NCBI GenBank assembly: GCA_013368445.1
Contig: JAACJO010000015.1
Span: 907,311 to 971,310, forward strand
Direction of reading: 5' to 3'
Length of the DNA stretch: 64,000 nt
Source of the DNA: Leucocoprinus leucothites
Lineage: Eukaryota > Basidiomycota > Agaricomycetes > Agaricales > Agaricaceae
Shown: positions 33,263 through 64,000 of the stretch, one piece after another
How the letters are laid out: each line of letters opens with the position of its first letter
Position numbering within the stretch: position 1 is the stretch's first letter
Notes under the pieces: generated by a model
Told to the model about the DNA's origin: nothing
Databases searched by the model: none
The model's input: the letters and a program-made list of their open reading frames with translations, nothing else
Translations under genes and position numbers: made by a program

Positions 33263-33350
33263 TGCACAGCATCATATTCGCTTTTAAAAGGCGAATGATA
33301 ACTACCGTTGCCATCCGGTACTTACTGTGACTTACGAACACCCATCCCTC

Positions 33351-40500: not shown

Positions 40501-40530
40501 AGGGACCACTAGTAATATAGTCCGAGAGAT

Positions 40531-41196: not shown

Positions 41197-41327
41197 CTTC
41201 CGGGCCATATATCTAAGCCTGGACCACTCTGGCAAGCCCTTTTCCATAATACATGCCATACTGATCCATTAGACGACTCTATAAACTAACCTACATCTAG
41301 ATATTGAATATTTACCCCACTTTTGGT

Positions 41328-41459
41328 ACCCGATCGGGTCCAACAGCACCCACTTGATTGGCTCTACCCGATCGGGTCCGATTGCACCCACTTGATTGGC
41401 TGACCATACCCTTCATTTCTTGGTGTCGACACACCCAATGGCTTCCTACCCGATCGGGT
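41328..41459. repeat. Three copies of palindrome ACCCGATCGGGT
   Basis: The perfect 12-bp palindrome occurs at 41328-41339, 41366-41377 and 41448-41459. The first two are followed by related words (GCACCCACTTGATTGGCT). It may be a binding site or part of a small repeat family. Confidence 0.6.
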
Positions 41460-42389
41460 CACTGTACCCTTCAGTTCCTGCAGCCCACACACCCAACTGG
41501 TTGAATAGTTACTGACTTCAAAATCACCCGAGGACAATAGTAGTGTGGAGTTGAAGCGAGCCTTGAGTACAAGTTCCTTCACCTTTGCAAGATCTTGGAC
41601 ATTATTGAGGTGCTCCCAGACAAATCTTCGAATTTTTGGGATTTTCAGGTATAGTTTCAAAGTTGTCATTGGGTGTCTCAAAGTGTGTTTTAGGTCCCTT
41701 GATGGGTATGTCATCTACAAAGGGACAGGCGACATTGGGGATTTCATCTTAAAGAAGGAAAGTGAGATTTCCATGTTGGATCTCCATTGAATTGGTGTAC
41801 CCCTAGGGATAGAGGTGAGCCGAAGGCTGCCGAGAGGAGTTTAAAACATAGTAAGATCCACATCCCAAGATTCTGGAGCAAGGGCATGCTGATCAAAGCC
41901 AACAAATAAATCAAATACACTATAACAGCCATGGCCACCAAATGATTCCGCATACTGAGGAGGGGTTATCAGGAGAATATTAGGGTTTTACTAGGGTTTT
42001 AAAACATTTCACCAGGGTTTACCAGGGTATGGATGGACAGAGGTGGACAGAGGTAGGCAGGGGTGAATATGGACAGAGAGGGTTGAGGTGAGATGGGCAG
42101 AAATATATAGGGTGAAGCAGAGGGTTGAGTAGAGATTAGGCAAACTGGTTGACAGGAAAACTTGATATTACTGTATGAACAGAAACCAATATCCAGGAAG
42201 AATGGTGTGCATGTTGTGAACCACAGGGACAACCACAGGGACAGAGGATAGACCCCTTGTGGATGCCATGGTATAGGCCCACTTGGGTGGATATTATCAC
42301 ACTTTCCAAAATGTACATAGTACACAAGTCAGCTACACAGAAAATTAATTATTCACTGGGCTATGGTAAACAAAGCAAGCTGATAGTTG
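41460..42389. other. No supported gene; left flank of the large element
   Basis: Contains direct short repeats such as AGGGTTTTA/CCAGGGTTTACC near 41980-42030 and GGACAGAGGT twice near 42033-42055. ORFs are unconvincing. Confidence 0.4.
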
Positions 42390-44230
42390 GATACTATACA
42401 TGTAAGAACAAGAACAAATGACAGCTACATTGTCGAAGAGAGAAACATGGATATTGGGATTAGATACCTGTATACCACCACGAAGACAAGGAGAGTGAGG
42501 GATGTGATTACTTTCAGTCTTATAATCAAAAATGTCACCAACTGTCTGGTATCTTCACAAAGATTTACATGCCACGATGGAGAAAGAGCAGAGACTTCTC
42601 CTAGAGGCAGCAGTTAGTTACCTGCACACCTTCACAATAACGAAGAAAGAAGTGAAGGAAATACTCATCTCCACTATTTTAATCCAAGACATCGCTGGTC
42701 ATCCTCAACATCTTCAAAAAGATTAGCATACCACCACAGAGAGGGAGCGGAGATGTGTTCCAGATGTTGTACTTAGTAATCTGTATGCCTTCATGATGAC
42801 GAAGAAAAAGTGAAGGTCATGCTCACTTTTGGTCTTACAACTAACAACGTCACTGGTCTCCTTCAGTATCTCAACAAAAATTCACATACCACCACAAAGG
42901 TGGAGCATCAACTCCTTCTAGACGTTGTAGTTAGCTGCCTGTATACCTCCTCAAAGACGAGGGGGAAAGTGAAGGAAAAGCTCACCTTCACTATTATAAT
43001 CATAAATTTTGACGGCCTTCTTCAGTGTCTGCACAATTTTGGCCACAGAGATGGAGCGGAGACTCCTCCTAGAAGTTGTGATTAGTTACCTGCATACCTC
43101 CATGAAGACAAAAGAAAAGGTAGGCGATATACTCACCTCACTGTTATAACCCTAGGCATGGCCAGCCGTCCTTGCCACTCTCATGAATATTTAAATGCCA
43201 CCACAGAGACGGATCATAGACTCTTTCTAGACGTTGTAGTCAGCTATCTGCATATCCTCACGGCAATGAAAAAACAAGTGAAGAAAATGCACACTCAAGT
43301 CTTACAATCAATGACATTGCCGGTCTCCTTCAGTGCCTTAACGAAGATTTGTGTGCCGCCATGGAGGTGGAGCATTGACTCCTTCTGGATGTTGTAGTCA
43401 GATATCTGCATAACACCACAAAGACAAGAAGAAGCTGGAGGAAAAGCTGACCATGCTATCTTCATGAAATCAAGCCCTATTATAATCAGAGATCTGATGA
43501 CCGCTGTTCTCGAGATATAACGACGAAGAAAAAGTGAAGGAAATGCTCACCTTCACCACTGCAACCAACGACGTCGCCGACCTCCATCAAAGTCTTGACG
43601 ATGATCTGCATTCCACCACGCAGAAGGAGTGAAGGCTCCTTTAAGTGGTTGCAGTTAGTCATCGGCATGCCACTGAGACGAAGAGGGGTGAGGGAAACAC
43701 TCACCTCTACCACTGCAGCCAACGACGTCGCCGGTCTCCTCCAAAGTCTTGACGAAAATTTGCATTCCACCACGGAGAAGAAGCGGAAGAGTCTCCTAGA
43801 CGCCATGGTTAGTTAACTGTACCCCACAAAGACGAAGAAAAAATGAAGTAGATACTCACTTTCACTGCTGCGACCAATGACGTCGTCGACGTCCTTTAGT
43901 GTCTTGACAAAAATTTCCATGCTGCCACGGAGAACGAGCGGAGACCCTTTCTAGTTGTTGCAGTCCGTTATCGCATTGCTACGAAGGCGAAGGAAAAGGT
44001 GAAGGATATGCTCACCTTTACTATATTAATCCAAGATGTCGTCGGCCGTCCTTGACGCCTTCACGAAAATTTTGCACGCCACCATGGAGAAGGAGCGAAG
44101 ACTCCTTCTAGATGTTGCAGTTGGTTATCGGCATGCCACAAAGACGAAGGAAAAGCTGGAGGAAAAGCTGACCATGCATCTTATAATCGGAGATCTGATG
44201 ACCACCGCCCTCGAGATATTGCTGAAGGCT
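42390..44230 (-). repeat. Left array of decayed ubiquitin-fragment repeats
   Basis: Read on the minus strand, about ten degenerate units recur. Around 42890-42960 the reverse complement translates, with stops, to pieces like NYNV, KELMLHLC, GGM and IFVE, paralleling the ubiquitin segment from Asn60 through the C-terminal Gly-Gly into Met1-Lys6 of the next unit. Orientation mirrors the right array. Confidence 0.7.
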
Positions 44231-45205
44231 TGCACCCCTCCACCAGGACGCAGGAAGAGGTGGACGATATACCAGCTCTTTCTTATATAATCAGAAAGAG
44301 TGCGTCCATTCCTCGAGCTGCTTGCCAGCGACATTCAAGCCTTTGGTGACCAAAACAGTCAGTGGATATTTCTGTTGACGACAAAAAATAGCTGACTTAT
44401 TCTAGGATTCCATCAGGGTACCAAGCTTTCGGTAGAATGGCCACGATTCCGAACAGTTTGGGAAAGCGACAAAGAGAGAAAGAGGGAGGTGTTTCGACTG
44501 AGAAGAGAGTTCTCAAAGGCTAACTATGACTGTGGAGAGCTGACTGTAAAGTCTAGCTGTGCGTCGACGAAAACGTCTGACGATGATCATGCGACGCCGA
44601 CAATAATGTCTGACATAGTATGCAGGATAGTTAGCCATGGTGAGTAGGGAAGATGGAAATCAATCTGAGTGATCGCTTCTGGCAGTCGTTGACAAATAAT
44701 GGTAAATATCGCGACAAGGCTGTGGGCAAACAAGTGTACATACTGGAGGGACTTGTCCTCGAAGTTAGTAATCCAACCAGCCTATGAGACGATATTACCC
44801 TCCTCTAGTGATTTTAAATGACGTCTCGTCTCGCGTCAAAGACACACAATGCTATTGATGCGCTAAATCACAGTAAGTGAATCAATGGACAAGTTGATTA
44901 GAGAATCTTGTCCAAGGGAATGTCTTCGAGGGCGAATGCTTCACCAAATATCACACTTGTGGGCCAATTACCCAAGTTTCATGCGTTGCTAGTCTCACGA
45001 CACCAATCAACGAAAGCACGAAGAAGACGATATCATATTCGAGGGTCAAGAGGTAAACAATGCGTGCACGGGCAAAACATAGCATGGCGTAACAAAAGGA
45101 GTGCAACAAGGATCAATAATTCGAGAGAGGAGCGCGGGAACAAAAAAAAAGCAGTAAAGAGTTCAAGAGCATGACGGAGTATGCGAGAGAGAGTCGAGAA
45201 AATGA
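44230..45205 (-). repeat. Inner part of the left inverted arm
   Basis: Reverse complement of 58630-59690, with only scattered differences (for example GACATAGTATG here against GACGTAGTATG in the partner). Similarity stops abruptly near 45205, just before the 3' end of the 901-aa gene. The outer side carries a ubiquitin-like stretch (VAGKQLEE, then GRTLSDY in another frame). Confidence 0.8.
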
Positions 45206-45396
45206 CTGCCATATCATCGAGGAGGGAAATATATAACTAGTCGAGGGGAACGGGCACTTGTATCCCCGAAAATAAGGCAATTCTGAATTGAATAATAGTC
45301 AGTGATTGGTGCTCAGATACAAAATACCAGCACAGAGGGAAGCTCGTCTCTACACTAGAGTACAAGTCCGTGGCTGAGAAGAGGATAAACACGCAC

Positions 45397-48167
45397 CTAC
45401 TCGTTGACGTTGCCGCCCTCATCATCTGAGGACAACATTCCCGTATCCGCATCGGTATATGCATCCTGCATCACTATATCCTCGTCTGCCTCGGCGATTT
45501 CGAAAATTGGTATCGCATCTTCTTTGAGTAGAATGTGGGGTGCGGGATCGCGGGTCGCGGAAGGGGGCCAACGAGTGAACGAGCGGCTGGACGGCTTCTT
45601 CGCCGATGTGGGCCACATCTTGTCAACCTCTGCTTTCGGCATCCAGTTCCACGTATAAATCCTCTTCCAGAAGTCATCACGGATGGCGTTGATGAGATCC
45701 GGATCGTGACTATTCTCATCCATCAACGACATCCACTGCAAGTAATAAGGGGATTGCCGATAGTTCTGTACCGCAGTGGAGACCTGGTGGCCAGCGGGAG
45801 GGAAGAGCCACTTGAAGCTATTCTGCCAGTCCTTTCGCGCCGCTTTCTTATACCACACCGCAACGAAAACCCGGGGAAAGCAAAGGTCCTTGTAAGGATC
45901 TTCACTTCCAGACCGACGCTGCACATCGCCGAGATTGAGATAAGATGGACTGGTGGTACCGCGCATGTTTGGCGACTTTGAGGTGATGTCAGCAACAAAC
46001 TGGCGCCATAGACGTGTGAGGCGAGCATCAATGTCACTTGAATCCTCTTCTGGAGCATCATCGACATCGGAACCGTCATCAAAGGCAGGAGAGGCGAGCT
46101 TATAGCCTTGTTCGTTAAGATGGAAAATGGGTGGGTCGGGTTGGTCGGAAAAATTGACCCACGGGACCATGGGTGCCTTAGCGGTAGTGGATCGTGTCTG
46201 TGCAACCACTGCCTTGTCGACGAATCCAGCGGACTGATACTTCATCTTAACCTCCTCTATGCTCATACCGCGAAAGAAATAGCGAAAAGATTTATCCGAC
46301 AGAAGATTTCCCCCGTAGCGGAATCGAGGGACATCGCCAGTGATGATGCGTCGAAAGAAGATGCAGCCATGAGGAATGAAGGGAATGGAACGACTGCTCC
46401 GAGTAGAAGCCCGGTAAGCCAGAGTCTTTGGGTGAACGTCGGATGATTCAGTGATAGGAAGGGCAGCGTCCATGAGCTCGCGAGAGGCAGGGCCATCGTC
46501 GGGGCGAGAGTGCAAGCCATTAAGCAGCCAGACACAGGCAGCAGTGAGAACAAGTGCCTCAGGTCGAAAACGAAACTCATTCGGGCCAGTCGCCTGAAGG
46601 TGAAGGACTTGGCTAATCGCCATCAAACGGATTATCCGAAAGTTCCTGTTAACGTATACACGAGTTTTTCAGCTACCGATGTAGATTTGCATAGCTGAGT
46701 GCTGACTTACCACCAATCCTTCCTAGAGATCGCGCATAAACACTGACTGAGGGCACCAGGATCGACATCGAGCAAGACTTCACGGGCGTAGACTGCGGGG
46801 ACCCTTACTTCGAGGCGAGCATTGGAAGAGTTGGTCTCCTTGGCGCGATCATAGATATCGTGGAGAGCCTCGATGGTGGGTGTTGGATGTGAATTACCAA
46901 GAGCTTCTTTCAACGTGAGATATTTGGAATGATGTGAGCCTTGGATATTGTATACTGAAGCTTTATCCGTCGTATAAGCCTGAACATACGAAATTTCGTG
47001 GTAGCCTTGTGACCGACTGCCCACTTCCAGGCGAAAGCCACCAAGAGCGGTAATGTGGCTAGCGCGGTCGTGAGCGTAACGGGAGGAGCTGAAGGAAGTG
47101 ATATTCGATGCCTTATCTTCGTCTATGCCGAGCGCTTCTTGGACGATGGTGGGGTGTGTGGCGGTGACCCACTGTAGACAGTCGCCCTCGGTGCTTGAAA
47201 TCTCGATACCAACGTCAACATACCACTCCCCAAATTCAGGAACGACGGGAGAAAGCTGGGCATCCTGGAAGAACTCTGAGAGGTAAAATTCCGCCGAGGT
47301 TGCATCTGCACGATGGTAGCTACCGTGCTTGACACCCTTGATAGTGTGCATGACGAAAAAGTCGGAAGCCCATGTACGATCCTCCACTGAGATCGTCCTA
47401 TCAGCCGACAGCTCGTAACGGATGCGACCAGCGAGGTCGTCGACCTTGTCTTTCGGAATGACCTTTGTACTCCAACTCTGCGTTCCGTTCTGGTTCGTCG
47501 CTCTCAACTCTTCCGCCTCATAAGTCGCAGGCCACTGCGAAACAATCTCTGGTCCAAGAAGGTGCCGAATAGCTGGGCGTAGACCCTTCTCATACCATAG
47601 AGCACGTTTTTCTTTAGGTACATGATGAGGTCGTTGAAACTTGTGATGGTCGGGACTCCAGAGGCCAGGGAAGAGGATATGAATATGGTGACGAGCGCCG
47701 AAATAACCAAACTCGAAATTGGGTAAATGGTGATAAGGGACTTTCCGTAACGTCTGGGAAGCCGTCAGCCTTGCATCTGTGAAGTAAGTTGGGACATCAC
47801 CTACATCATGATAATTGTGGAAGTAGGATATGTGTATGGAAGAAGTAAGCGCGAATTTAGGATGAGGAACGGTGTAAATTGTGATAGGAGCGTCTACAAG
47901 GATTCTATCGGAAAACCCAATGGCAGAGTCGTAGTCGCGAGCGACTTTCAAAGTCCTGACGTCCCGGATGGGGTCCAGTTCGGGGTCGAGAAAGACTTGT
48001 CCAGCGACGCCACTGTCGCCATCGTCGTCGTCACGCGAATATTCGCCAGTAAGGACAAATTTGAGGAACTCCTGAGGGCGGTCTTGATTATGATACGTCG
48101 TTGCCATAGTATTGAACTCGGCGAGAGAGAATGAAGCACTCGAGCCAGTTGAGTACAGGTTGGCCAT
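45397..48167 (-). CDS. 901-aa protein of unknown function, cargo of the large element
   Basis: Two exons, 48167-46711 and 46645-45397, joined by a canonical intron (GTAAGT...ACAG), give 901 aa in frame. It is not a family I recognise. The N-terminal half contains His/Tyr/Phe-rich stretches (SSIHISYFHNYHDVGDVP, FGYFGARHHIHILFPGLW) and GEWYVDVGIEIS; the middle has WWNFRIIRLMAISQVLHL followed by a hydrophobic region; the second half has FIPHGCIFFRRI, GMSIEEVKMKYQSAGFVDK and an acidic C-terminus. No signal peptide, zinc finger or nuclease motif is evident. Coding bias is strong and the frame intact, so it is probably functional. It is divergent from the SNF2 gene. Confidence 0.65.
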
Positions 48168-49129
48168 CAGGAGGGGGATTTACGGTGAGGTACTGATCCA
48201 ATGAATAATAAAGGGCGTATATATTGGCGATCTGAAAACAGAACACTACTATACAATAAAACCAGACACATTTGGCCGAGGTTGGAGTGCGGTTTCAATG
48301 TGGACAACTGAAACACACGTTCATCCAACCTCGCATTTTTTCACCTGTGGAGGTGAATACAAAGCAGGCAATACGTACGGATTGAAGAGGAGGAACATGC
48401 CTGGTGAATTAGGTATTGCGACAGATATGGATGGAGGAGTCCCCGTTTGATCCTATCTCTATCGAATCACAAGGCCAATAAAAGTGGATCAGGGAATTGG
48501 AGTACTGAGAAGTGCGCATGGGACGCACCAAAGTTCTATCTGAAGCAGCTTAAACTTTACGTGGCACGATATAGTACTTGGCGGTGGGAGAGTGAACGGC
48601 TCACTGATCATGAGGTGTGTAAAACCATGAGGAAGCCGTAGAACTGGAACCAATTGGCATTATCGGCAAAGAGCTGCGCAAGAATGGAATCAAGATTCTA
48701 TGAGGCGAGTGTGGATTGAGGTAGAAGCGATAATGACTGGCTCGACGCCGTCATTGAGTGATTGTGGTTGGGGGCCTTGAGGCTGCCGACAGTAATATCT
48801 GGCATCAGGGAACGCATTCGTGCAGACTATGAAGTCTTGCACGAGTCGCAAAACACGTCATGGATAAGAACATCTCATGCGTGGTATGCGCTCTGCGTCG
48901 CGGATCGAACATGTCGTCCATGAGCGAACTGTGAAACCTGACGAGGTCGTTGTTTAGCCAGGTTTGGCCAAAACCCCTGATCTGTGATCCCTAGTTTCCC
49001 AGGCTCCCGTTTCGTACTCAGATCACAACTTTAACCATGCTTCGCCGTTCCCAGTACAATCCTTCCTGTCTGAGACATTCTTGTCCAGGCTACGGATTGT
49101 AATAGCTTGAGCTAGACATCAATGTCAGC
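48168..49129. other. Intergenic within the large element
   Basis: Upstream region of the 901-aa gene. No gene or repeat recognised. Confidence 0.4.
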
Positions 49130-49573
49130 ATGAGCTGCACCGGCATGCCAGACCAGACGTTGTCGTCGGTCGAATTCGATTGGACCGTGAATGAAATTGT
49201 CCACGACCGCGTCTATCTCAGGCAATACTTGCCCAGCACTATCCCTTCCTCCGCAGGCGTGAGCAAGGTCATCGCGGAATATGCATATCAGTCCATCTCC
49301 TTCTCGTATCCTGAATCTATTCTGACGACGCACTAGTGCTGCTGTGCAGCCTACCGCTACAACTGCGCTGTACACTTGTTCCGCGACGAAAAATTCGATT
49401 GGCATCCACTTTCTCCGCATATTACCAAGGGGACACAGCAATCGACAAGTCTTTTCTCTCATGTTCGTCTTGTGACCTATCTCTTCGATTCTACCCCTCT
49501 GATCCCGAGTCATGGACCATATCTAGTACAGCTGATACCCCAGAACCCATGTTCGTGTGTACCTTTCGATTAG
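49130..49573 (+). CDS. Hypothetical 121-aa protein inside the large element
   Basis: Exons 49130-49258 and 49337-49573 join in phase 0 across a GTGAGC...CACTAG intron to give 121 aa. The start is MSCTGMPDQTLSSVEFDWTV; the second exon opens with a Cys cluster (CCCAAYRYNCAVHLF). An overlapping frame in exon 2 is also open, so the model is tentative. No family recognised. Confidence 0.35.
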
Positions 49574-50165
49574 TGGGTCTGCTGGTTGACCACTAGCTAG
49601 GTACGCTACATCCTTTCACACACCCCTACATAATCTCCGACGAACGTTTTACTCATTCTCCTACCACCTGCTCACTCAAAATCACTATCACATTGCCTCA
49701 AGTCGTTTGATCATCGACTACGCCTAATTCAAGGTGCTTCGTTATTCCTAATGGAAGGTCTTATCATAGCTCATTGTCCGACCCTGTTTTGAAATAAGAA
49801 CCTTTTAAGTGGATCATTAATTTAGGTGCGTCCATATCCCTGTTTCACGTATTTTTGTACACGCTCACGCAGCTTTCACTCACTCTTCTACGTAGAAAAT
49901 CATATTGTTTTGAGCATTCGACCTTCCTTCGTCAACATCCCCATTCTCGAACTGCAACTGAGACGGAAGGCTCCCGGCTGTTTGCTAAACAGTACCCCCT
50001 TGCCGCAGTTTTCTAATGTAATGTACTCACTTCAACGTAGAAGCCGCTTATCGCACGACTTTATTCGTTGTATCGTGTTTTACTTCCTTATTATATTGTT
50101 CGCCCAGGGTATATATGCTGCTCGTCTTGACTATTTGAATACACAGATCCTTTCTTTCCTTCCGC

Positions 50166-53100
50166 ATGCCAAGTCACACCTCTGCGAGCGCCCTTATCAA
50201 ACTTTACCACATGGACGGCGCTCCTTGGAGCTGGCCGACATGGCAAGAGACCACCGGCATGACCCATGGTCTCTTTCCCAAGGATGACAATTATCTTCCG
50301 AAAGGCTGGACCCGTCGGAATGCAACTGACGTCGCCTCATATTTTCGCGCATACAACCAGCTCACACGAGAAGACCAAAAAATTCAGTTCGCGAAGAACA
50401 ACAAGAAAAATACTCATAAGCCCGGTCGTGTTGCCTGGAACAGCTTCGTATCCCGGAACTGGAACAGCTGGGGTATCCACAACATCGTTGTCGCTGAACT
50501 CCATGCCTGGGACGTTCATCCCATGTCTATCCTCGTCCGCAAGAACAGCGTTGGCGTGTCTGCGCCATGGCCGAATGCCGAACTCTACACTGTTAAAATC
50601 GTCGACTCATTGGCGATGAAACTCTTCGGCGAGGACGTATTCCCCGATGAGTCCGACGTTCTCCTTGACGATGAGATTCGTCGATGCCTCATGATTATTA
50701 TTCAAAGGTCGTGGAACACTATACGTTGCCAAGTGAGCGCCTTGAGAAATCGCGCAGACGAGATTGAAGAAGCAGCGGCCTCGGCGATTGAAGGTCAGTG
50801 TTTACCCATTTCTTTAGACTGTACTAAATACATCTCAGATCTCGAGAATAACCGACCTACCAAAGCTCTGGTCAACAAGGCCATCCGAGCCGTCGCCAAA
50901 TGGAAGGACTGTGCCGAACTTCTGAGCACGGACCAAAATGTCGCAAGGGCTCGGGATTTGCTGACTCAGTTACAGACATTCATGGGAGGGCTGGGTGAGA
51001 AGATCAAGAAAGAAAAGAAAGCTATGTCGAAAGGTGTGTTAACCTATTCACCGTACTCGAAACTTCTAACCTAAGGGTGACTGAGTGGTAGGCAAAGCAT
51101 CATCGAAGGCGCTCGCACAGCTAGCAACCGAACAAGATGTCGATGACCTCCTTCTCGTTTATACGGAGTATTTCGAAACGAATGCCGAAGAAGATGACGA
51201 TCCACCGCTTTCCAACTCATCCCGAGTTGAAGAGATCAGGCAACTCAATGACGACGAGCACGACTTTGGGATGGAAGTGGAAATATCGATGCCAGCCTCG
51301 GTTCTTGGTACTCGACTCGGCTTCAAGTCGTGCCTACCGGCTCAGTTCAATCTACATCGTCACCGATCTGGATTATCGCCCTGGGATAGCGAGGAGCTTT
51401 TCAAATCTGATCCTACTCCCCCAGAGCTGGTCGCGATGAGTCTGCACTGGCACCAGCTCGCCGGTGTTCACTCGATCGCTCGTAGTATCTTCACGGAGCA
51501 ACCTGATCCAGACCATACTCTCGGAGTACTCGTCACCGACGAAGTAGGGCTGGGAAAAACCACTCAATCCCTCACCTTTTCCGCGTTTCTCAATCAGTCC
51601 ATCTTTGTACAAGAGAATCCTGAGTTCAGTCCAGCTCCAATTCTAGGTGAGCTTATTGTCTTGATTCGATTACCACAGATCTGATCCAGATCTCAGCTGC
51701 TCGTCCATTTTTGGGCGACCGCAGGAGAATTCCCTCTCACCCTCATCTTATCGTATGCCCCGGAACTCTCATTCCCCAATGGATCGCCGAAATCAAGACA
51801 GTTTTTATCCCACACAGCGTTGATATTTTGGTATACGATAATCGGGCCAATAGTGCGACTTTTTGGGGACCAAAAGGACCAGTCCAGACGTCAAATCAAG
51901 CACCCCATAATCGCATAATCATCGCTAGCCACTCGGTGAGTCTTATTTACCGCTGTTTCACAAAATCGCCTTGCTTACCTTGCCAAAGTCGGTCTTCACC
52001 GACTTCAAGAATACCCACAAGAAGCCAGCCCGTGGTCGCAATACTCGGCCATGGGATATTCCGGAAACAAGGAAATCGACCGTATTCGATCGTACCATAT
52101 TCGGTCAACAATTCCTCTCTGTCACCATTGACGAGGCACATCACATGCGCAATGTTGGGAATAAGCACACGGCCATGCTTTGCCTCCTCGACGCAGCCAT
52201 TATCCGGATTATAATGATGGCCACCCCTCTTCACACTTCTCCGAAGGCGAGCATATTATTTTTTTACCACTTGTTTACTCTGGTGCTGACATTAATTGTT
52301 TAATAGGACATCGCTTCCCTTGCTCGTCTCGTCGGTATCAAGCACTTTTCCACCGAAATATCGTACGTCGAGGAGAAAGCAGATGCCTCTGCCATCCGAA
52401 AAGCAAAAAAGCTCGATGACGACAACGCAGCAGTATTCGCAGAAAATCTCCAGATAGTTAAGCGGCTTCAAGGCTACTGCACAGGACATCTCTTACGACG
52501 GACGACCGCGAGCTGTGATTCGGAGGGAAAAACCTTGATCCCTTTACCACCTTACAAGGAGATCTTTGGCGTTCTCAATCTAACTGAAAGGGAGAATCAA
52601 ATCATCGAAGAGCGAGCTGAAGCGGCCAAAGCTGAGTCAGTTGCAATCAAACATTCTGGTCACGAGTTGAGATTAACGCCCTGCGCAGCTTACTGGGAGC
52701 ATCTACCGCGAAGATACAGACGAAGGCGAGTGATGAGAGACTATGATTTTCTCTTCCTGACGATTATAAAGAAATTTTATCTCGAGTATCGCCTTGCAGT
52801 CGGTTATGCGAAGGACGACCCCTCAGAATCGTTACCTGTCGTTGCATCACTCGATGAATGGGAACCAATCCGGAGCACAAAGATGGATGTTTGCGCCCGT
52901 CTGTGTCGCCATTATCTTACCAATGATGATGTTGAAGATGTCCATTTCGAGGAAGGCGAGCCTATATTTCCGGACATTCCCTCCATTCCTCGACACAAGA
53001 TCAGCAGGAAACGTCGCATAATCATCTATGCTGAGTTCCCGTCAATGGCCCCACTCCTCCAGAATGTGAGTAGCTGTCTTTACTCGAGCTTTTCAATAAC

Positions 53101-55484
53101 TTGCGAATATCAAACAGATCCTCCGCCTACACGGCGTCCCGAGCCTTGCAATCAACGGGAAAATATCATTTCAAGAACGTGACAAACGCGTGAAACGATT
53201 CCACGACCTCAAGAGTGATACTCGCGTGCTCATCTTTTCAAGCGTCGGCTCAGCTGGCCTGAATCTCTCCATTGCTGATGTTGTCATATTTTTTGTGAGT
53301 CGTTGAATTAATTATTATCTCTTTGATTCACTTTATTATTTATCTAGGATCAGCCATGGTCTGCTCAAGATGAACGACAAATTCGAGGACGAGCTCATCG
53401 TCAACCGCAGTCCAAGGAGGTCAAAGTCATTTACCTCCTTGCAAACAACTCCGCTGACCTGCTGATGAACGGAGTGGCAAGAGGAAAGCAGGATATGCTG
53501 GAGGCATTCGTTAACAAAGAGTTACGAGAAGGTATCTGCCGGCGAGTGCAAGCGCTTGACCGTATGTATTAATCAATGTATTGACAGAGCTTCAAATTCT
53601 CTTGAGTGGGGATATTCCCGATACCGAGAAGGACAACGAGGATCTTGACGATGAACCCGACGACTCCACAAATGAAAGCAGGAAAAAGAAACCAAAACTG
53701 AAGCCAAAACCGAAGCCAGCAACCAAGCCCACAACCGGAAAGACCGACGACGAACCCCACGAAAACGCGGAGGCGCATCCAATTACCTCTGGAATGAACA
53801 CTAGGCACGCGAATCGACAAAAGAACAACCCTACCGAAGACTTCAAAGGTGAAGAAAGCGCCCAAGGAACCAAGAACAAGCGCAAGACTCGAAAATTTGA
53901 TGGCAAGGACGCTGGAAGTGCACAAGGCTCCCGAGATGCCCGACAAAATAAGACCACGCAAAGAAGTAGAAAGATTGTCGTTGACGAGCCCACTGAAAGT
54001 GCAGATGCCCCACGAGAAATTCACGAGGATATTGATCCACTCAGTGACGCGGCGGTTAGTGAAAGTAATATATCAGCTGCATCGTCAATGAATCCTTATG
54101 GTAAGTATGGAGATTTTTTCTCGGTCACTTTTTTCACACCTTCACCTAGCTCGCTCTTCCACATCGGAACCGGAGCTTGATTTTGATAGGGCTATGAACT
54201 TGAACAGTAAGTTATATCCACAAGTGTTCTCGACATTGTTATGCCGACTAGACTAGCATCCGGAGCAGGGATGTACTCAGGGAATAGAATGAATGGTAAG
54301 CCCTTCGTTGTTGTAAACTTGCAATATCTCGAAAACGGTTTCGTCAGCGTCAAACAAAGAGAGTCCGATGGAAACTGATGACGAAGTGAACCATCCATCG
54401 CCTTCGATCCAAGATGAAGGTAAGTTATTTGATTTCCATACCAGTCATCCAGCTGCAAGAGCTCCTTAGATCTTGCTTCAATGAACTGCGTGGTGTCGGC
54501 ACACCCTGACGATGTCACCAGCGACAGTGAGTGTTCAGTCATCTCCCACCAATCATCATTGATCGATCGAGTCATATTTAGGCGAGTTAGGATGCGCAGA
54601 TGTTGGCTACCGTGCAGACGATGATCAATACCCTAATGGTAGTTCTCAAGGCGACTTTAGCGGACCGAATGAACCTCCATCTCCCATGTCTCAAGGTAAG
54701 CTAATCCCAGTGGTTGCCCGTACACGATACCAAGTGGACCTAGTATCTACGTTTGTTCCTTCCGTTGCTGTGCGGTCCTCTCGCAGCAACAGGAGCGCTT
54801 TTGATGCGGGTCGGCGTCAAGGAAATGCTGCTCAAGGCCCTCGTTCCATGGTCTCAGGTATGAATCACTCTTCGCTGCAACAACTTTGATATAACTGTCT
54901 ACCATTGTGTAGGTCATTCGCAAGGGCGTGGCATAGTCGATCAACAGTCACTTCCTCGTGAACTCGGAGGTAAGCGCTTTCTCCACGAAGATGGCCATAT
55001 ACCAATATCCATTGCACAGGACGTTCACAAGCAACCTATGGACGCTCTTCAAGCACTTCCAGACGATCTTCCGGTCCTGTTCAGACTCAAAGGAGTAAGA
55101 GTTAAGTTTTATATTTCTTACACGACACTGACAGTACAATCGCATCCAGGTCATTCGGACGGACTTCTACTACCGGGTTTTAATACACCTTGCCAAGTGC
55201 CGGAGCCACCTGTCATGTTGCCACGTCCTTTAGTTCCGCGGGCGACTACACCGAATCTTCGTGGAACATCCTCGCATGCCACGAGGTTGGGTCAGATTGC
55301 TCGAAGCCATTCAATTGGCCCTGGTGCACATATACATCCCCGATCTCAGACTCCTGGCAGCGCTTCGTCCTCAAGCTCCGAGCGCAGGATTCAACCATCT
55401 CGGGATCCGGGACCGCTCAGTGACCTGGGAGTACCGCCGAGATCGGCGCTCAAGGCAAATCGGCCCTCGAAGACCAAGAAGTAG
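50166..55484 (+). CDS. SNF2-family DNA-dependent ATPase with novel N-terminus and Ser/Pro-rich tail
   Basis: Likely a chromatin or DNA translocase of about 1,450 aa. The first nine exons fit in phase: 50166-50793, 50839-51033, 51092-51646, 51697-51935, 51989-52246, 52307-53065, 53118-53294, 53348-53531 and 53588-54100; several short exons follow to the stop at 55484. An N-terminal region of about 400 residues is unrecognised. Motif I is VTDEVGLGKTTQS (about 424-433), Ia LIVCPGTLIPQW, II TIDEAHHMRN (about 586), III-like MMATPLH, V-like SVGSAGLNLS and VI QIRGRAHRQPQSK. The C-terminal tail is Lys/Pro- then Ser/Arg/Pro-rich. The intron after 52246 starts with GC. All helicase motifs look intact, so the enzyme is probably active. 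Confidence 0.88.
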
Positions 55485-55545
55485 GACTGACTCGCCTATT
55501 TTTCATTCGCCTGTATTTGTAAACAGAACATCATCATCGTAGTCG

Positions 55546-55818
55546 TCATTTCCTCTTGCTTTGCTTTCGTGTTTCAATTCTTTGTTGCTCATCCTGTATC
55601 GTAGTGCGGCTCTCGTATAGTCTGTATGCTGTTTCGTACATTTTATCTATTTTTCCTTTTCTATCCATCGGATCAAATAAGGTCAGACGCATGCCGGAGC
55701 AAGCGATATCATCGTCGTCGTAGGTATCCAATGGTTTGATTTTTCTCTTCGAGCCCCGAGCACCGAAGTCTGACACAGGAGGAGCGCAATTATGAAGCAC
55801 AGTCATCCGCGACAACAA
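55546..55818 (-). CDS. Hypothetical 90-aa basic ORF, convergent with the SNF2 gene
   Basis: The translation is highly charged (GSKRKIKPLDTYDDDDIACS, then DRKGKIDKMYETAYRLYESR) and ends in RKQSKRK, unlike random sequence. It could be a small gene or the last exon of a longer minus-strand gene whose upstream exons were not found. It starts 62 bp from the SNF2 stop. Confidence 0.35.
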   Translation of the reverse strand: MLSRMTVLHNCAPPVSDFGARGSKRKIKPLDTYDDDDIACSGMRLTLFDPMDRKGKIDKMYETAYRLYESRTTIQDEQQRIETRKQSKRK

Positions 55819-56315
55819 GGTCGATGAGAAGCACGTTTCCCAAATTTAAGACTAGGTGTTTTTTCCGAATACCCGCATCCCATCAAAGTCTTTACTCTGG
55901 AAATACTGAGTACTTTTCCGTCGAGCAGCAGCTATCGGTGGGAGTAATTTCGCTCAAGTTAGCTAAACATGATTGACCTCGTATCTGATAAAGGGACTCC
56001 CTTACTAATCGGGCGATAATTGATTTGCATGTGTTTGATCCGACGCATGTCTTGATGCGACACCCGGCTTGTCGTCATCCATCACATCCCTCGCCTCGTC
56101 TCGGACACGACCAAGCACTCAAAACTTTATTTCACAGCCAAGGTACGTTATTCGTAACCACTAGCTTCTGGTCTGTATGGATGCAGAGGTCAGAGATAAT
56201 TCTCGACCTGGAAGAGATGTTCTTGTCCTTCCCTCCGGGTAGACTTTATAGTCGCTACGGAGCACCATGCTTCATCCCTACTGATATTATCGTTAATCCC
56301 TGACTCTAGTTCGAA
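55819..56315. other. Intergenic within the large element
   Basis: Upstream region of the 693-aa gene. A plus ORF at 56025-56303 has no splice or domain support. Confidence 0.35.
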
Positions 56316-58517
56316 ATGGCACCGTTCTCTCGCGATCAGCGTGGAAATATGGTCTTCCATCCGAACCATAGGATTGGTGGAGGTAAGTCTTAAGTCTTCA
56401 ACATTATTTTAGTCGCCCATGTTTGTCTAATTGTCTGATTTTTCATTAGAGCCATTCCAGGCCACAGACGCGAAGCTGATAGGTGAGCTCGGTAGCACAT
56501 ACATCTCAGCGAACAGCGACTCTGGAAGCAGAGGCAAGGCCGAGAAGCTGGTCATCACGACGCCGAATGCGGATTACCTCCCTCGAGTCAATCTTGGCCA
56601 GCAGGTTGTCAAAGTGTATCATGATGGTCGTTGGGGGGCAGAGGACTGGGCTCAATGGCCCCAGTGGTACTTCGACGAGCAAGAGCACTTCGCGTATGTT
56701 TTGCGCAAACCGTCCCCGATGGATCTACAGAGTCATAAGCTCCGTTGGCTGTGGTGGGATTTGACTGAGAGTGATTGGGAGGCGGATGCTGGGCTTCAAG
56801 TTGGCCTTGTTCGGAAGAGTATTGTTGATGAATTCTATGCTATACGTATGAGTTTGATGGAGGAAGTGGATACTTGTCGCTGCATGAATGGATTAGATAA
56901 CCAGAGGCTTCAGGAAAGTGCAAGAAACATGATTACCTGCACTTCTTCCCTTCGGTACATCCCTCAACCTTTCCTCGACACGTTGATGACCGTCACTGCC
57001 GCACAGCGGTACATGCTACAAACGCGCGCTCTCCTCGACAAGATCAACAAGTGGGATAAGCTCCCTGCTTCCACTAATCCTCGCTCCGTCGACAACTCGA
57101 TCCTCGGATGCGTTACTGACCGGCCCCCTGTCCTCTTCGACATGTATATCAGAGGTGTGCCGGTCTGGTATGTCCGCAGGCCGGTCCAGCTCCCCGATGA
57201 CATTACCATCGTCGAGGAGCGTACATTAACTCATCCCAAACAACGTATCAATATGAAAGAGTGGGAGAAATCACACGTCTTTTATCAGGGGCCACTGTCT
57301 CGTGAAATCCACACTACGATTGAACGATGGAAAGCCGGCAATCTCGACCTTCGATTCCTCGACAACGTTAAAGCCACCCCTTCTCCGGGTCAACATCAAC
57401 AGTCTCAGCCCTCACGCCAGGAGGTGCATCGAGCGCGAACCGAGCCATGTGAGTAGATTCGTTTGTACAAATTGCTTCACTCATACATTAAATTTCTCAA
57501 GACTCCAAAAAAGCAACCACCGTACGAGTCGCATCCCAGATTCAAGTTAACAACGAAGCTTTCAAAGAACTCGAGTCACCGAACATTTCCAAGGCGCTGC
57601 CTGTCTGGAGCGAGGCTCTGGCAGCCATTCAGCGTGACGACAGTCTGCTTGTTGATCATCCGAAACGAGATCTCTTCCATGGATACGCATTTCCACCCCC
57701 ACGGCTCTTCTGCAAGGACAAGGAGGAAGATAACATTTCCTGGACACTCGCATGGCTAACAATTCGGATGTCGTGGATTGGATTAATCGGGGATCGCGAT
57801 CGCACTCAACCCCTTCCCACTCCCCACCAATGGCGGAGCTTCCTCCACAACACTTCTTTGGATCTCGAGCTTCATCGAACGGATACTCGGCGTAACAATC
57901 CCGCATCGTCGAAGGAACCAGGATCAAAACGTCGCGCCCGTTCCATCAATGCGCATAACCAGGCAAAGGAAATATTCACTATAACACTCCCCCAGAAAGC
58001 CGATTATCACGAGGTCAAATGGGACTCGAAAGTAGTTTGGAAACGCGCAGCGACTGGCCAGATCTTGAATCTTACCTCGCTGGATCGCAAACGAATTACC
58101 TGGGACATTCAAGAGCACAACTTCCGCCTAGAGCTATTAGCTCTCGATCGATGTGTAATGGGCAATATCTGGAAGACACCCGACGGTGAAACTAAGCGTA
58201 CACAGTTGCACGCAGATATGTGGTCAAATGACGTCATAATGATGGCTGTTCTTCCGACTACTTCAGGGCTTGCCACTCCTGACTGGCGTGAACGTCGTGT
58301 TCGTTTCCGTGCTTTTCACCGGATTATCCAGGGATGGCCAGGAGTCTGTTTGGAATTGGCAAATGTCACTTATTGCTACGAGCTCAGTGGAAAAGAGCAC
58401 TGGGATATACTGAAGTTTGACCGAGTGGAGAAACTGGCCGCCAATCATTATTGCCAAGTCTTTTTTAATTATTTCGGCCGCCCGCCTAGTATCCCTCATA
58501 TTCTTCCTGTTGCGTAG
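56316..58517 (+). CDS. 693-aa protein of unknown function, cargo of the large element
   Basis: Exons 56316-56382, 56450-57448 and 57502-58517 sum to 2082 nt (693 aa), phases consistent. The start is MAPFSRDQRGNMVFHPNHRI. Notable blocks: DGRWGAEDWAQWPQWYF, then HKLRWLWWDLTESDWEADAG, VWYVRRPVQLPDD, ISWTLAWLTIRMSWIGLIGD and HQWRSFLHNTS. It is rich in Trp. I recall uncharacterised agaricomycete proteins with a similar x-P-V-W-[YF]-[VI]-R-P motif but no function. No catalytic signature or membrane anchor. The frame is intact. Its 3' end lies about 110 bp from the right arm, mirroring the 901-aa gene on the left side. Confidence 0.65.
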
Positions 58518-58629
58518 CTCATTTCGCGGAAAGTCTCCTCTCTAATCTCTATGTTGTTTGTACGTTCTGTGTTTCGCGGTGTTCTTGGACGCATATTCTT
58601 CTCGTCTTCGTTTATTATCTTCGTTTCCT

Positions 58630-59690
58630 CTCTCTCGTGTGTTCCGTCGTGCTCTTGGACTCTTTTCCGCCTTTTTTTTTTTTGTTCCCGCGTTCCTCTC
58701 TCGAATTACTGATCCTTGTTGCACTTCTTTTGTTACGCTATGCTATGTTTTGCCCGTGCACGCGTCGTATGCCTCTTGACCCTCGAATATGATATCGTCT
58801 TCTTCGTGCTTTCGTTGATTGGTGTCGTGAGACTAGCAACGCATATCTGAAACTTGGGTAATAGGCCCACAAGTGTGATATTTGGTGAAGCATTCGCCCT
58901 CGAAGACATTCCCTTGGACAAGATTCTCTAATCAACTTGTCCATTGATTCACTTACTGTGATTTAGCGCATCAATAGCATTGTGTGTCTTTGACGCGAGA
59001 CGAGACGTCATTTAAAATCACTAGAGGAGGGTAATATCGTCTCATAGGCTGGTTGGATTACTAACTTCGAGGACAAGTCCCTCCAGTATGTACACTTGTT
59101 TGCCCACAGCCTTGTCGCGATATTTACCATTATTTGTCAACGACTGCCAGAAGCGATCACTCAGATTGATTTCCATCTTCCCTACTCACCATGGCTAACT
59201 ATCCTGCATACTACGTCAGACATTATTGTCGGCGTCGCATGATCATCGTCAGACGTTTTCGTCGACGCACAGCTAGACTTTACAGTCAGCTCTCCACAGT
59301 CATAGTTAGCCTTTGAGAACTCTCTTCTCAGTCGAAACACCTCCCTCTTTCTCTCTTTGTCGCTTTCCCAAACTGTTCGGAATCGTGGCCATTCTACCGA
59401 AAGCTTGGTACCCTGATGGAATCCTAGAATAAGTCAGCTATTTTTTGTCGTCAACAGAAATATCCACTGACTGTTTTGGTCACCAAAGGCTTGAATGTCG
59501 CTGGCAAGCAGCTCGAGGAATGGACGCACTCTTTCTGATTATATAAGAAAGAGCTGGTATATCGTCCACCTCTTCCTGCGTCCTGGTGGAGGGGTGCAAG
59601 CCTTCAGCAATATCTCGAGGGCGGTGGTCATCAGATCTCCGATTATAAGATGCATGGTCAGCTTTTCCTCCAGCTTTTCCTTCGTCTTTG
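58630..59690 (+). repeat. Inner part of the right inverted arm
   Basis: Inverse of 44230-45205. It includes a long near-identical stretch from about 58750 to 59690. Toward the outer end the plus strand reads LNVAGKQLEE, then in another frame GRTLSDYIRKSWYIVHLFLR and PGGG, matching ubiquitin from Ala46 to the C-terminal Gly-Gly with frame changes. Confidence 0.8.
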
Positions 59691-62600
59691 TGGCATGCCG
59701 ATAACCAACTGCAACATCTAGAAGGAGTCTTCGCTCCTTCTCCGTGGTGGCGTGCAAAATCTTCGTGAAGACGTCAAGGACGGCCGACGTCTTGGATTAA
59801 TATAGTAAAGGTGAGCATATCCTTCACCTTTTCCTTCGCCTTCGTAGCAATGCGATAACTGACTGCAACAACTAGAAGGGGTCTCCGCTCGTTCTCCGTG
59901 GCAGCATGGAAATTTTTGTCAAGACACTAACGGACGTCGGCGACGTCGTTGGTCGCAGCGGTGAAGGTGAATATTTACTTCATTTTTTCTTCGTCTTTGT
60001 GGAGTGCAGTTAACTAACCATGGCGTCTAGAAGACTCTTCCACTTCTCCGTGGTGGAATGCAAATTTTCGTCAAGACTTTCGAGGAGACTGGCGACGTCG
60101 TTGGTTGCAGTGATAGAGGTGAGTGTTTCCCTCACCCTTCTTCGTCTCAGTGGCATGCCGATGACTAACTGCAACCACTTGAAGGAGTCTTCGCTCCGTC
60201 TCCGTGGTGGAATGCAAATTTTCGTCAAGACTTTCGAGGAGACTGGCGACGTCGTTGGTTGCAGTGGTGAAGGTGAGCATTTCCTTCACTTTTTCTTCGT
60301 CGTTGTAGCACGTAGTTAACTAACTGCAACCACTTACAGGAGCCTTCGCTCCTCCTGCGTGGTGGAATGTAGATCTTCGTCAAGACTTTGGAGGAGACCG
60401 GCGACGTCGTTGGCTGCAGTGGTAGAGGTGAGTGTTTCCCTCACCTTTCTTCGTCTCAGTGGCATGCCGATGACTAACTGCAACCACTTACAAGAGCCTT
60501 CGCTCTTTCTGCGCGGTGGAATGTAGATCTTCGTCAAGACACTAATAGAGGCCGGCAACTTCGTTGGTTACAACAGTGAAGGTGAGCATTTCTTCGCTTT
60601 TTCTTCGTCGTTGTGGCATGTAATTAACTAGCTACAACAATTTAAAGGGGTCTCCTCTCCGTCTCCGTGGCAGTATGCAGATATTCGTCAAGGCCTAAAG
60701 GAGGTCGGCGTCGCCGTGGGTTACAGTGGTGAAGGTGAATATTCCCTTCACTTTTTCTTCATCTTCGTGGCATGCCGATCACTAACTGCAACCAACCACT
60801 TAAAGGAGTCTTCGCTCCTTCTCCGTGGTGGAATGCAAATTTTCGTCAAGATTTTGATGGAGGTCGGCGACGTCGCTGGTTCCAGTGGTGAAGGTGAGCA
60901 TTCTCTTCACCTTTTTCTTCGTCGTTGTGGCATGCAGTTCACTAACTTCAACCACTTGAAGGAGCCTTCACTCCTTCTCTGTGATGGTATGCAGACATTC
61001 GTCAAGACTTTCAAGGAGGTCGCCGACATTGTTGGTTGCAGTGATGAAGGTGAGCGTAGCCTCCACCTTTTGTTCGTCTTTGTGGGGCGCAATTAACTAA
61101 CCATGGCATCTAGAAACTTCTCCGCCTCTTCTGCGTGGTGGAATGCAAATTTTCGTCAAGACTTTGATGGAGGTCGGCGACGTCGTTGGTTTCAGTGGTG
61201 AAGGTGAGCATTCCCTTCACTTTTTCTTCGTCGTTGTAGCACGTAGTTAACTAACTGCAACCACTTACAGGAGCCTTCGCTCCTCCTGCGTGGTGGAATG
61301 CAGATCTTCGTCAAGACTTTGATGGAGGTCGGCGACGTCGTTGGTTTCAGTGGTGAAGGTGAGCATTCCCTTCACTTTTTCTTCGTCGTTGTAGCACGTA
61401 GTTAACTAACTGCAACCACTTACAGGAGCCTTCGCTCCTCCTGCGTGGTGGAATGCAGATCTTCGTCAAGACTTTGATGGAGGTCGGCGACGTCGTTGGT
61501 TGCAGTGGTGAAGGTGAGCATTTCCTTCACTCTTTCTTCGTCGTTGTAGCACGTAATTAACTGATACAACCACTTGAAGGAGTCTTCGCTCCTTCTCCGT
61601 GGTGGAATGCAAATTTTCGTCAAGACTTTGAAGGAAACCGGCCACGTCATTGGTTGCAGTGATAAGGTGAGCATAGCCTCCACCTCTTTCTTCGTCTTTG
61701 TGGCATGCTGGTAACCAACTTCAACATCTAGAACGAGTCTGCACTCCGTGGTGGAACGCAAATTTTCGTCGGGCCTTTGGTGGACGTCGGCGACGTCGTT
61801 GGTTGCAGTGGTGAAGGTGAACATTTCCTTCACTCTTTTCTTCGTCTTTGTGGCATGGCGATAGCTAACTGCAACATCTAGCAGGAGTCTTCGCTCCTTC
61901 TGCGTGGTGGAATGCAGATCTTCGTCAAGTCTTTGAAGGAGACCGGCGACGCCGGTTTATTTCAGTGGTGAAGGTGAGCGTTTACTTCACTTTTTCCTCG
62001 TCTTAGTGAGATGCAGTTTTAACTAACCACGACGTCTAGAAGGCGTCTCCGCTCCGTCTACGTGGTGGAATGCAAATTTTCGTCAAGACTTCGATGGAGG
62101 TCGGCGACGTCATTGGTTTCAGTGGTGAAGGTGAGCGTTTACTTCACTTTTTCCTCGTCTTAGTGAGATGCAGTTTTAACTAACCACGACGTCTAGAAGG
62201 CGTCTCCGCTCCGTCTCCGTGGTGGAATGCAAATTTTCGTCAAGAATTCGATGGAGGCTGGCGACGCCGTTGGTTACAGTGGTGAAGGTGAGCGCTTCCT
62301 TCACTTTTTTTCTTCGTCTTCGTGGTAGTATGCAGATTTTCGTCAAGATCTCGAAGGCAGCCGTTACCACGTCTCGGCTTCCAGCGCTTATGGTGAGTCG
62401 GAACTTCACCTTGTCCCTTCGTCTTCATGGTCGCAAGCAGTTTTCTGACTACAACATCCAGAAGATGCCTATGCTCCGTTTCCGTGGTGGTATCCAATTT
62501 TCATCAAGATGTAAAGGATAGCTAGTCACATCTCGAGCTACCGCATACAGGGTGAGCTTACCCTCAGTCTTCTTCTGCGTCTTCGTTGTAGCATGCAGAT

Positions 62601-63545
62601 TTCTCACTACCACGCGTAGAAGGGGTCCACACTTCCCCTCCGTGGCAGCATGCAAGCCTTTCTTTTTTCACCAAGACCTCGAAGGCGGCTAGCCACGCCT
62701 TTAATTATAATAGTGGGGGTGAGAATCTCTTCTACCTCCTCTTCGTCTTCGTGGAGCTATGTAGATCACTAATCACAACGTCTAGAAGGACTCTACGCTC
62801 TGCCTCCGTGGTGGCACGTAAATCCCCGCCAATGCCTCGAGGGCGGTCGTCACGTCCCGAACCTACAGCGCACAGGACGGGCCCACCCCCCATCCCGTCC
62901 TATGCCTTCATGGTAGATCCTCGTCGAGGTCTCGAGGACGGCCCGATTACAATACGCAGGGTGAGCCTATCCTTCACCTTGTCCTTTGTCTTCGTAGTGG
63001 CAAACAGATATCTGACTATAACATTCAGAACAAGTGTACACATCGTCTCCGTGGTAGCGTGAAAATTTTCGTCCAGGCTTCGAGGACGGCCATCACGTCT
63101 ATGATTATAATACTCAAGGTGAGTTCATCCTTCACCTTGTCCTTCGTCTTCGTGGTGGCATGCAGATCTCTGACTACTACATTCAGAGGGAGTCTATAGT
63201 TCGTCTCCGTGGTGGCATGCAAATATCCATCAAAGTCTCGAGGAGGCGGGTCAGGTCTCGGACTACAACGTACAGGAGAGCCTACCCTCCACCTAGTCCT
63301 TCGGTTTCGCATTTGCATACAGATCTCTGACCACCACACTCAGAAGAGGCCTACGCTTCGTCCCACGGCGTCATCCAAATCTTCGTCAAAGTCTGGAGGG
63401 CGTCGTCACGTCTCGGACTACGCCGTACAGGGAGAAACCTATCCTCGACGTTGTCTTGCCTCTTCGTAGTGGCATGCGGATCTCTTACCACAGTGTTTAG
63501 AAGGAGTCTACCCTCCACCTTGTCCACCGTCGTCGTGGTAGTAGC
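59690..63545 (+). repeat. Right array of decayed polyubiquitin-fragment repeats (155-bp period in part)
   Basis: Near 63121-63240 one open stretch reads LHLVLRLRGGMQI directly followed by SDYYIQRES and again VRLRGGMQI: the ubiquitin C-terminus joined to Met1-Gln2-Ile3 of the next monomer, twice. Just upstream is EDGHHVYDYNTQGEFILHL, paralleling ubiquitin EDGRTLSDYNIQKESTLHL. Other units keep LRGGMQIFVKT. Between 61195 and 61505 units repeat with a 155-bp period (GTGGTGAAGGTGAGCA at 61195, 61350 and 61505). Each unit seems to hold two partial monomers lacking ubiquitin residues about 10-50. Stops and frame changes exclude a functional polyubiquitin. Confidence 0.85.
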
Positions 63546-63726
63546 TATATATATCACAGCAGCCAAGCCAGAGAGACGTGACCGATAACATGCTATTACT
63601 CAAAGTCTTCACGCCGTGCAACACCAACCGAACACTGTCTGCACTCGCACCCTTGATGCACGGAAGGCCAGGCCGCCCGCATTTGCGATGCCCCGTCGAC
63701 ATTTAGTCTAATGGAATTTCTCGCGA
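63546..63726. other. Right flank of the large element, no supported gene
   Basis: Short stretch between the last ubiquitin-like repeat (KESTLHLV near 63500-63525) and the next promoter. Nothing recognised. Confidence 0.35.
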
Positions 63727-63759
63727 TTTTTCGCGTGCCTATATAAGGCGATTTTCGCG
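63727..63759 (+). promoter_or_regulatory. TATA box flanked by two CGCGAAA-type sites
   Basis: TATATAA at 63740-63746 is bracketed by TTTTTCGCG (63727-63735) and TTTTCGCG (63752-63759), reverse complements of CGCGAAAA. Such words resemble E2F/SBF sites. They precede a transcript with a leader intron at 63837-63886 (GTAAGT...CTATAG). Confidence 0.5.
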
Positions 63760-63890
63760 TAGACGCGACTTCTGTCCTCGACGTTCATCACAACCACCAC
63801 CGACGTCGCTAGCTCCTCCGTCTCCCAACAAACTTTGTAAGTAGCTGTTTTATCCGATGAATACTCGCTCACAGCATCCTCTATAGCACC

Positions 63891-64000
63891 ATGCCGTCCG
63901 TCCGCGTCTACATTTGTCGCAACCAGTGCAACGAGCGGTATGTGGAGGTGCTGAGAGTTTCGGAAGAGGATCATGGCGGTGTGGTCATCGCTGGAGGTGA
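63891..64000 (+). CDS. 5' end of an unidentified gene, continues beyond window
   Basis: The ATG at 63891 lies four bases after a leader intron (63837-63886) and starts an open frame to the window edge: MPSVRVYICRNQCNERYVEV, then LRVSEEDHGGVVIAGG. The position of TATA box, leader intron and ATG is that of an ordinary regulated gene. Too little protein is visible for a family call. The ratio of Arg, Val and Cys does not suggest a signal peptide. Confidence 0.5.
   Translation, partial: MPSVRVYICRNQCNERYVEVLRVSEEDHGGVVIAGG

Follow-up and report, generated by a model that had tools for sequence, protein, structure and literature searches.

What kind of structure carries a SNF2-family ATPase gene and two large genes without clear known domains at the end of a contig of the mushroom Leucocoprinus leucothites? 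The window, meaning the whole 64,000-nt stretch analyzed here, is C15:907311-971310 in a genome of 47.0 Mb and 110 contigs, and contig C15 stops at the window's last base. The first-pass annotation had proposed an undescribed giant mobile element of ~21 kb, running from 42390 to 63545 and ending in long inverted arms. Its multi-copy nature and its intact, linked gene trio are borne out, but an inverted-arm transposon is not supported; the true left edge is 41963, and on the right the element runs past the end of the window. Measuring no less than 22 kb, the locus is a terminal (subtelomeric) element, and it represents one subfamily within a family whose hallmark is three linked genes. With moderate confidence, we read it as an element like the yeast Y' elements, copied onto eroded chromosome ends by telomere-primed recombination. 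Its features, and those directly to its left, are listed below.

40451-40508, + strand: telomere-like terminus remnant of 58 bp (TTTAGGGTTATCTGGAAG...), read by eye, followed by segment S
40509-41962, + strand: segment S, left end CTAGTAATATAGTCC, right end uncertain by 1 base
41963-42560, + strand: proximal (left) terminus of the element, with the telomere-like start GGGTTATCAGGAGAATATTAGGGTTTTACTAGGG
42560-44154, - strand: left tandem array, ~150-159-nt spacing, with the ubiquitin LRGG/MQIFVKT junction
43519-45193, + strand: left inverted arm, from BLAST between copies and self-alignment
45397-48167, - strand: gene for a 901-aa protein, 2 exons (48167-46711 and 46645-45397)
50166-55484, + strand: SNF2-family ATPase gene, 14-exon model, ~1,523 aa, PF00176 and PF00271
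56316-58517, + strand: gene for a 693-aa protein, exons 56316-56382, 56450-57448 and 57502-58517
58628-60307, - strand: right inverted arm, from BLAST between copies and self-alignment
59576-63544, + strand: right tandem array, 17 units of 154 nt, then units of ~157-158 nt, ubiquitin-derived
63545-64000, + strand: start of the distal part; matching C78 runs ~744 bp further to 6816, the next terminus

The left border is exact. Matches to C59, C58, C43 and C4 all begin at 41963, and the first 34 nt recur at five places (C4, C15, C43, C58 and C59) with 0 mismatches each in a search that allowed up to 3, while the sequence to the left of the joint differs at all five of these window-type termini. 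The start sequences of the terminal elements are GGGTTATC and TTTAGGGTTATTATAAG. Where the continuation of the flank is known (C15, C43 and C4), the telomeric part of the joint varies. On C15 the joint reads GAGG/GGTTATC, and segment S on C58 ends alike; on C4 it reads CAACACT/TTAGGGTTATC, by comparison with that contig's own repeat at 2837770; on C43 it reads CTAT/AGGGTTATC, with the exact base less sure (compared with the 693 gene of C2, at 77% identity). Interstitial telomeric sequence proximal to the element is limited to one or two units at the joints read. The variation of the telomeric part fits joining via a few telomeric bases better than it fits a transposase-cut end.

A second subfamily repeats the pattern. 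It carries the trio on C2, C4, C26 and C74, is 58% identical to the window in the second exon of the 901 gene, and is itself 99-100% identical between copies in searches (99.9% for the C2-C4 and C26-C4 pairs). Its copies have one common start (C4:2837833, C26:465612, C2:3095526 and C74:13127), which on the two contigs where it was read, C4 and C26, is TTTAGGG(G)TTATTATAAG. The copies on C4 and C26 have different flanks, and the C4 flank is not matched by those of C2, C26 or C74. Eight more places, on C43, C78, C74, C58, C3, C64, C23 and C22, hold related terminus sequence (104-191 bp, 73-87% identity). In this subfamily an internal TTAGGG array of ~105-127 bp separates the SNF2 stop from the 693 gene (C2:3107124-3107250 and C4:2849433-2849538); the window copy has no TTAGGG array there.

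The outer ends are variable. Three copies, on C4, C23 and C26, are capped directly by TTAGGG repeats. The second-subfamily copy on C4 extends to the terminal telomere, and homology of the C26 copy runs to 485393, with (TTAGGG)n from 485394. The C23 cap lies inside the 901 gene, whose match runs to 516206 with (TTAGGG)n from 516203, and which is cut 3.9 kb from a terminus. The C3 terminus (3175066) is 2.2 kb from a telomere, and homology of the C2 and C74 copies stops ~20.2 kb from the start. Window-type copies are cut on C4 at window position 43865, after 1.9 kb, and on C58 at 55353, inside the SNF2 gene. Copies are also stacked: on C78 the next terminus stands at 6816, with TTTAGGGTTAGGG, and on C43 the 693 gene of an older copy is broken off, with a window-type terminus attached at the break in the same orientation.

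These borders bear on ordinary subtelomeric duplication, in which chromosome ends would swap sequence randomly, the trio being part of the host's own gene set without special mobility. Duplication is a known habit of subtelomeres, other repeats are also common to different ends here, and the 901 family is old in the Agaricales, with clades that are largely family-wise in its tree. However, random exchange predicts neither one exact proximal start in differing flanks nor a joint inside the 693 gene of an older copy, and we regard this explanation as unlikely.

Further copies exist on different contigs, and the trio does not occupy one fixed place in the genome. Mismatches to the window number 13 of 22,006 aligned bases on C59, 7 of 20,524 on C78 and 15 of 13,390 on C58; the spread is recent. 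Indels relative to the window are mostly 1 bp and mostly in homopolymers (29 of 40 on C59 and 13 of 18 on C78), so the frame breaks in the C59 and C78 copies are probably sequencing errors. C59 (73,602 bp) and C78 (28,090 bp) agree in length with the contigs that encode D9756_011234 and D9756_011620 of L. leucothites. C15 and C59 end at the identical base, which is a sign of an assembly broken at repeats. That shared end, and the predominance of homopolymeric 1-bp indels among the differences of C59 and C78, speak for an assembly artefact. Against it stand the differing flanks on C15, C58, C59, C43 and C4, the same pattern in two subfamilies, and the adjacency of the genes in other species' assemblies, and an artefact is very improbable. 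The inverted repeat, too, is unlikely to be a one-off assembly error, as C59 and C78 share the arrangement at the mismatch counts given.

Position and direction agree with a terminal habit. Seventeen termini were found, five window-type ones located exactly and 12 by the second-subfamily search. Direction, judged by the nearer contig end or telomere, is decidable in 13 (the two on C74 and those on C78 and C64 are undecidable), and 13 of 13 point outward: C2, C3, C4 twice, C15, C22, C23, C26, C43 twice, C58 twice and C59. By hand count, the 901 family has at least 22 loci on 16 contigs, and on C2, C4, C11, C15 and C26 each of its eight loci is no more than 60 kb away from a contig end. Reverse-transcriptase matches served as a control, likewise counted by hand, with 150 of the 661 candidates scored: of those listed on the same contigs, 1 of 14 is that close to an end, or 3 of 17 when C7 is included.

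Taken together, the pattern is one of a constant telomere-like proximal end, variable distal ends, stacking, and near-identical copies on different contigs. This polarity, in which the attached end is constant while the outer end erodes and further copies stack, is that of telomere-fed elements. In the mechanism that we favor, an eroded or broken chromosome end bearing a few telomeric bases would pair with an element of another chromosome, at that element's telomere-like proximal end. Break-induced copying would then proceed outward through the element to the end of the donor chromosome, as in the amplification of yeast Y' elements. The new copy might later erode from outside, be recapped by telomerase, or have the next copy joined to it.

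The Y' elements of Saccharomyces cerevisiae are the simplest precedent. They are described as multi-copy at chromosome ends, with a helicase-type open reading frame (ORF), internal tandem repeats and stacking (PMC13177704), with telomeric sequence proximal to about half of them and amplification by break-induced replication (PMC13177704, PMC10532341). The mushroom element is likewise end-located, multi-copy and outwardly oriented, with a helicase-type ORF and proximal interstitial telomeric sequence, and the likeness is meant as one of lifestyle. Unlike Y', it measures 20-22 kb against 5.2-6.7 kb, about three times longer, it encodes an SNF2-type ATPase with introns and two further gene families, and its joints hold only one or two telomeric units.

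Several observations weigh against telomere-primed copying. First, the joints hold very short telomeric runs, ~5-16 nt. Second, the flank of the C4 window-type terminus is itself a repeat, which recurs before the second terminus of C4 (97.7%) and resembles window positions 36996-37393; the latter lie away from the window's own joint. Third, the window-type terminus on C58 is ~55 kb from the telomere, and ~40 kb of sequence that is not part of the copy lies beyond it, so not every copy is terminal now. Fourth, cassettes of a type B, with the gene order SNF2(-) 693(+) 901(+), occur on C4 (2819652-2828091) and C26 (457646-465610) without a mapped terminus, and near the start of C21 a 693(+) 901(+) pair is accompanied by a 901(-) piece that faces inward by gene order; C21:68895-72449 is a cassette of type-B gene order without an SNF2 match. 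The roughness of the selection estimates given below belongs here as well.

The same polarity invites comparison with the Terminons of rotifers. These are described as attaching at telomeric repeats by one constant end, being truncated by short telomeric repeats, forming head-to-tail arrays and reaching tens of kb (PMC6431247). The locus could by analogy be a giant Penelope- or Terminon-like retroelement, or owe its movement to the reverse transcriptase of a Penelope-like element at telomeres, the 3' end of its RNA pairing with the telomere overhang. The telomere-like attached end and the outer ends truncated by telomeric repeats (C4, C23 and C26) match Terminons, and Penelope-like elements are reported at Agaricus bisporus chromosome ends (PMC7473861). 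Unlike Terminons, however, the genes here lie in both orientations and contain introns, and neither the window-element ORFs nor the Pfam scans made contain a reverse transcriptase of the Penelope/Athena type or any other, which speaks against a Terminon; the reverse-transcriptase search of the genome leaves room for a telomeric Penelope-like element. No recognizable hammerhead was found either, with 0 Rfam matches at the gathering threshold in the window, L017, L026, L034 and L036, although a divergent motif could escape such a scan. Movement by reverse transcription therefore seems quite unlikely.

Segment S, directly proximal to the element, recurs at C58:35527-36980 (99%) and at C58:20052-20114, where it is cut after 63 bp. 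The left end CTAGTAATATAGTCC is thus seen three times, along with one earlier cut. The three minus frames give no Pfam match above the cut-off. Seen in reverse, the end of segment S could correspond to a telomeric retroelement's 3' end. The start at C4:2836875, CTACTCTATATAGTCC, resembles the start of segment S.

The inverted arms, near-identical as first noted at 44230-45205 and 58630-59690, are real. Self-alignment gives a core of 942 nt at 99% (44040-44981 against 58848-59789) with adjoining pieces at 92-95%, and the full pair from BLAST between copies spans ~43519-45193 against 58628-60307 at 96%. Both arms are also found elsewhere in the genome, on C59 and C78, in the arrangement of the window. 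The proposal that genes end 110-190 bp from the arms is right for the 693 gene, whose stop lies 111 bp away, and not for the 901 gene, at 204 bp. Nor are the arms the ends of the element, since 1.56 kb separates the true left end from their start. A transposon of the foldback or inverted-arm type is not supported: the arms are internal, the C4 copy, the only second-subfamily copy read whole, lacks them, and the outer end has no fixed border. Target-site duplications, a mark of cut-and-paste transposons, presuppose a second fixed end, and no fixed distal border was seen.

In their outer parts both arms consist of tandem repeats of ~154-158 nt, ubiquitin-like around LRLRGG/MQIFVKTL. Pieces of the arrays, 27-91 nt long, match the polyubiquitin gene of the host (C7, within 682501-683900) at 75-97%, and both arrays appear to derive from a fragment of that gene. 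By eye, the unit looks like a 67-nt intron followed by an 88-nt exon, so the reading frame would shift from unit to unit.

As proposed, all three cargo genes have open spliced models in the window, with approximate borders for the C-terminal exons of SNF2. Of 12 window-element ORFs of at least 150 aa with a start codon, 11 fall within the trio and one (49826-50287) overlaps SNF2 exon 1. The SNF2 protein matches PF00176 (SNF2-related, E-value 1.1e-23) and PF00271 (Helicase_C, 2.1e-17), whereas the window's 901-aa and 693-aa proteins have no Pfam match above the cut-off. None of the 27 members of the 901 family matches Pfam at E < 0.01 (best 0.012). Among the 14 members of the 693 family, two have WD40 repeats and one has a weak NAM-associated match (E 0.0021). 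The WD40 repeats are additional and N-terminal, in P0004 and P0010, relatives from L. birnbaumii, and reflect either a real fusion or a gene-model error. Profiles of both families found no solved relative among PDB sequences at E < 0.3, and structure models of both gave no clear match to PDB folds. Ratios of nonsynonymous to synonymous substitution (dN/dS) between paralogs, rough at a dS of 1.2-1.6, with four of seven comparisons unsaturated and parts of all three genes covered, are 0.097 for a piece of 693, 0.066 for SNF2 exon 1, and 0.068 and 0.086 for the 901 exons. By these values, each of the three genes is under strong purifying selection in the parts compared.

This constraint sustains the main rival to copying onto eroded ends, enzyme-driven attachment, which we consider possible but distinctly less probable. 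The element would then be a telomere-targeting DNA mobile element, with its three proteins producing or exploiting a free copy whose defined proximal end they attach to chromosome ends that lie exposed. In its autonomous form, a tentative proposal of similar standing, SNF2 and the two new families would be one machine that seals the free copy onto such ends by way of a telomere-like terminus. The exact constant start in five and in four copies, joints of a few bases, a trio kept together in several species under strong constraint, and near-identical copies on several contigs all suit this proposal. Domain and profile searches of the three proteins, however, found no polymerase family and, as the first reading of the sequence had it, no transposase or recombinase; at joints with a known flank, a variation of a few telomeric bases is better explained by telomere-based joining than by a cut end. 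AcademH elements are helicase-bearing DNA transposons that are present in fungi; in contrast to them, no Academ-type transposase and no terminal inverted repeats were found at the locus. HeT-A in Drosophila and Terminons in rotifers add to chromosome ends by reverse transcription. If true, an autonomous element would be the DNA counterpart of such end addition, and a reserve of chromosome-end material in mushrooms.

The trio, in whole or in part, recurs in other species. In L. birnbaumii all three genes are neighbors by locus tag (NP233_g8475/g8477/g8478 and g6855/g6856/g6858), and SNF2 and 901 genes are neighbors there (NP233 g8897/g8898), in Leucoagaricus sp. (AN958_03743/03744) and in Termitomyces (C0993_012195/012196 and C0995_014638/014639); in Macrolepiota, SNF2 and 901 matches sit on contigs of equal size in two cases. 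In a tree of 27 of the 28 901 sequences (P0042 left out), the window sequence groups with a single sequence from Leucoagaricus (100/100), further copies from Leucoagaricus fall in other places, and the Lyophyllaceae sequences form one clade. The family thus appears from its tree to consist of old subfamilies with mostly vertical descent.

Multi-copy helicase genes at fungal chromosome ends are a further likeness. They are described as the TLH/UTASa genes of Ustilago and the subtelomeric RecQ genes of A. bisporus var. burnettii (PMC10532341, PMC7473861), and the subtelomeres of the latter hold many unknown genes and 19 RecQ models (PMC7473861). A telomere-linked RecQ helicase (TLH) was nevertheless rejected for the locus, whose domains are SNF2-related and Helicase_C; NCBIfam recQ reached only E 0.089, far below the cut-off. 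The chromosome-end niche is known, but this gene set, an SNF2 element of this kind, was not found described in the literature searched (titles and beginnings of abstracts, with few subscription papers).

Other features of the window and the assembly complete the setting. TTAGGG runs over all contigs number 180 in + orientation and 0 in -, leaving left chromosome ends without recognizable telomeres; we take this to be, perhaps, a basecalling error of the C-rich strand. The repeat at window 36996-37456 is common to several contig ends, at times directly before a terminus, and recurs at C4:2834242-2834968, C4:2837001-2837832, C19:741215-742006 and others. A glycosyl hydrolase family 62 gene lies at 9658-10725 (PF03664, E 5.4e-65). 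Another inverted pair of ~2 kb (10939-12902 and 32232-34217, 82-93%) overlaps, with its right member, an ORF with NPHP3_N/NACHT domains (33596-35152). Direct repeats at 6976-8601 and 13054-14723, 76-90% identical and 6.1 kb apart, are probably a tandem gene duplication.

On the preferred reading, copying onto eroded ends, the probable role of the SNF2 protein and its two partners is to assist this recombination or the chromatin state at chromosome ends; which step they serve is a guess. The family provides a recently spread multi-copy system for studying how chromosome ends are made and maintained outside yeast, with exact joints, datable copies and telomere-capped remnants. It also connects an SNF2 ATPase at the chromosome ends of Agaricales with two conserved families that lack a clear known domain.

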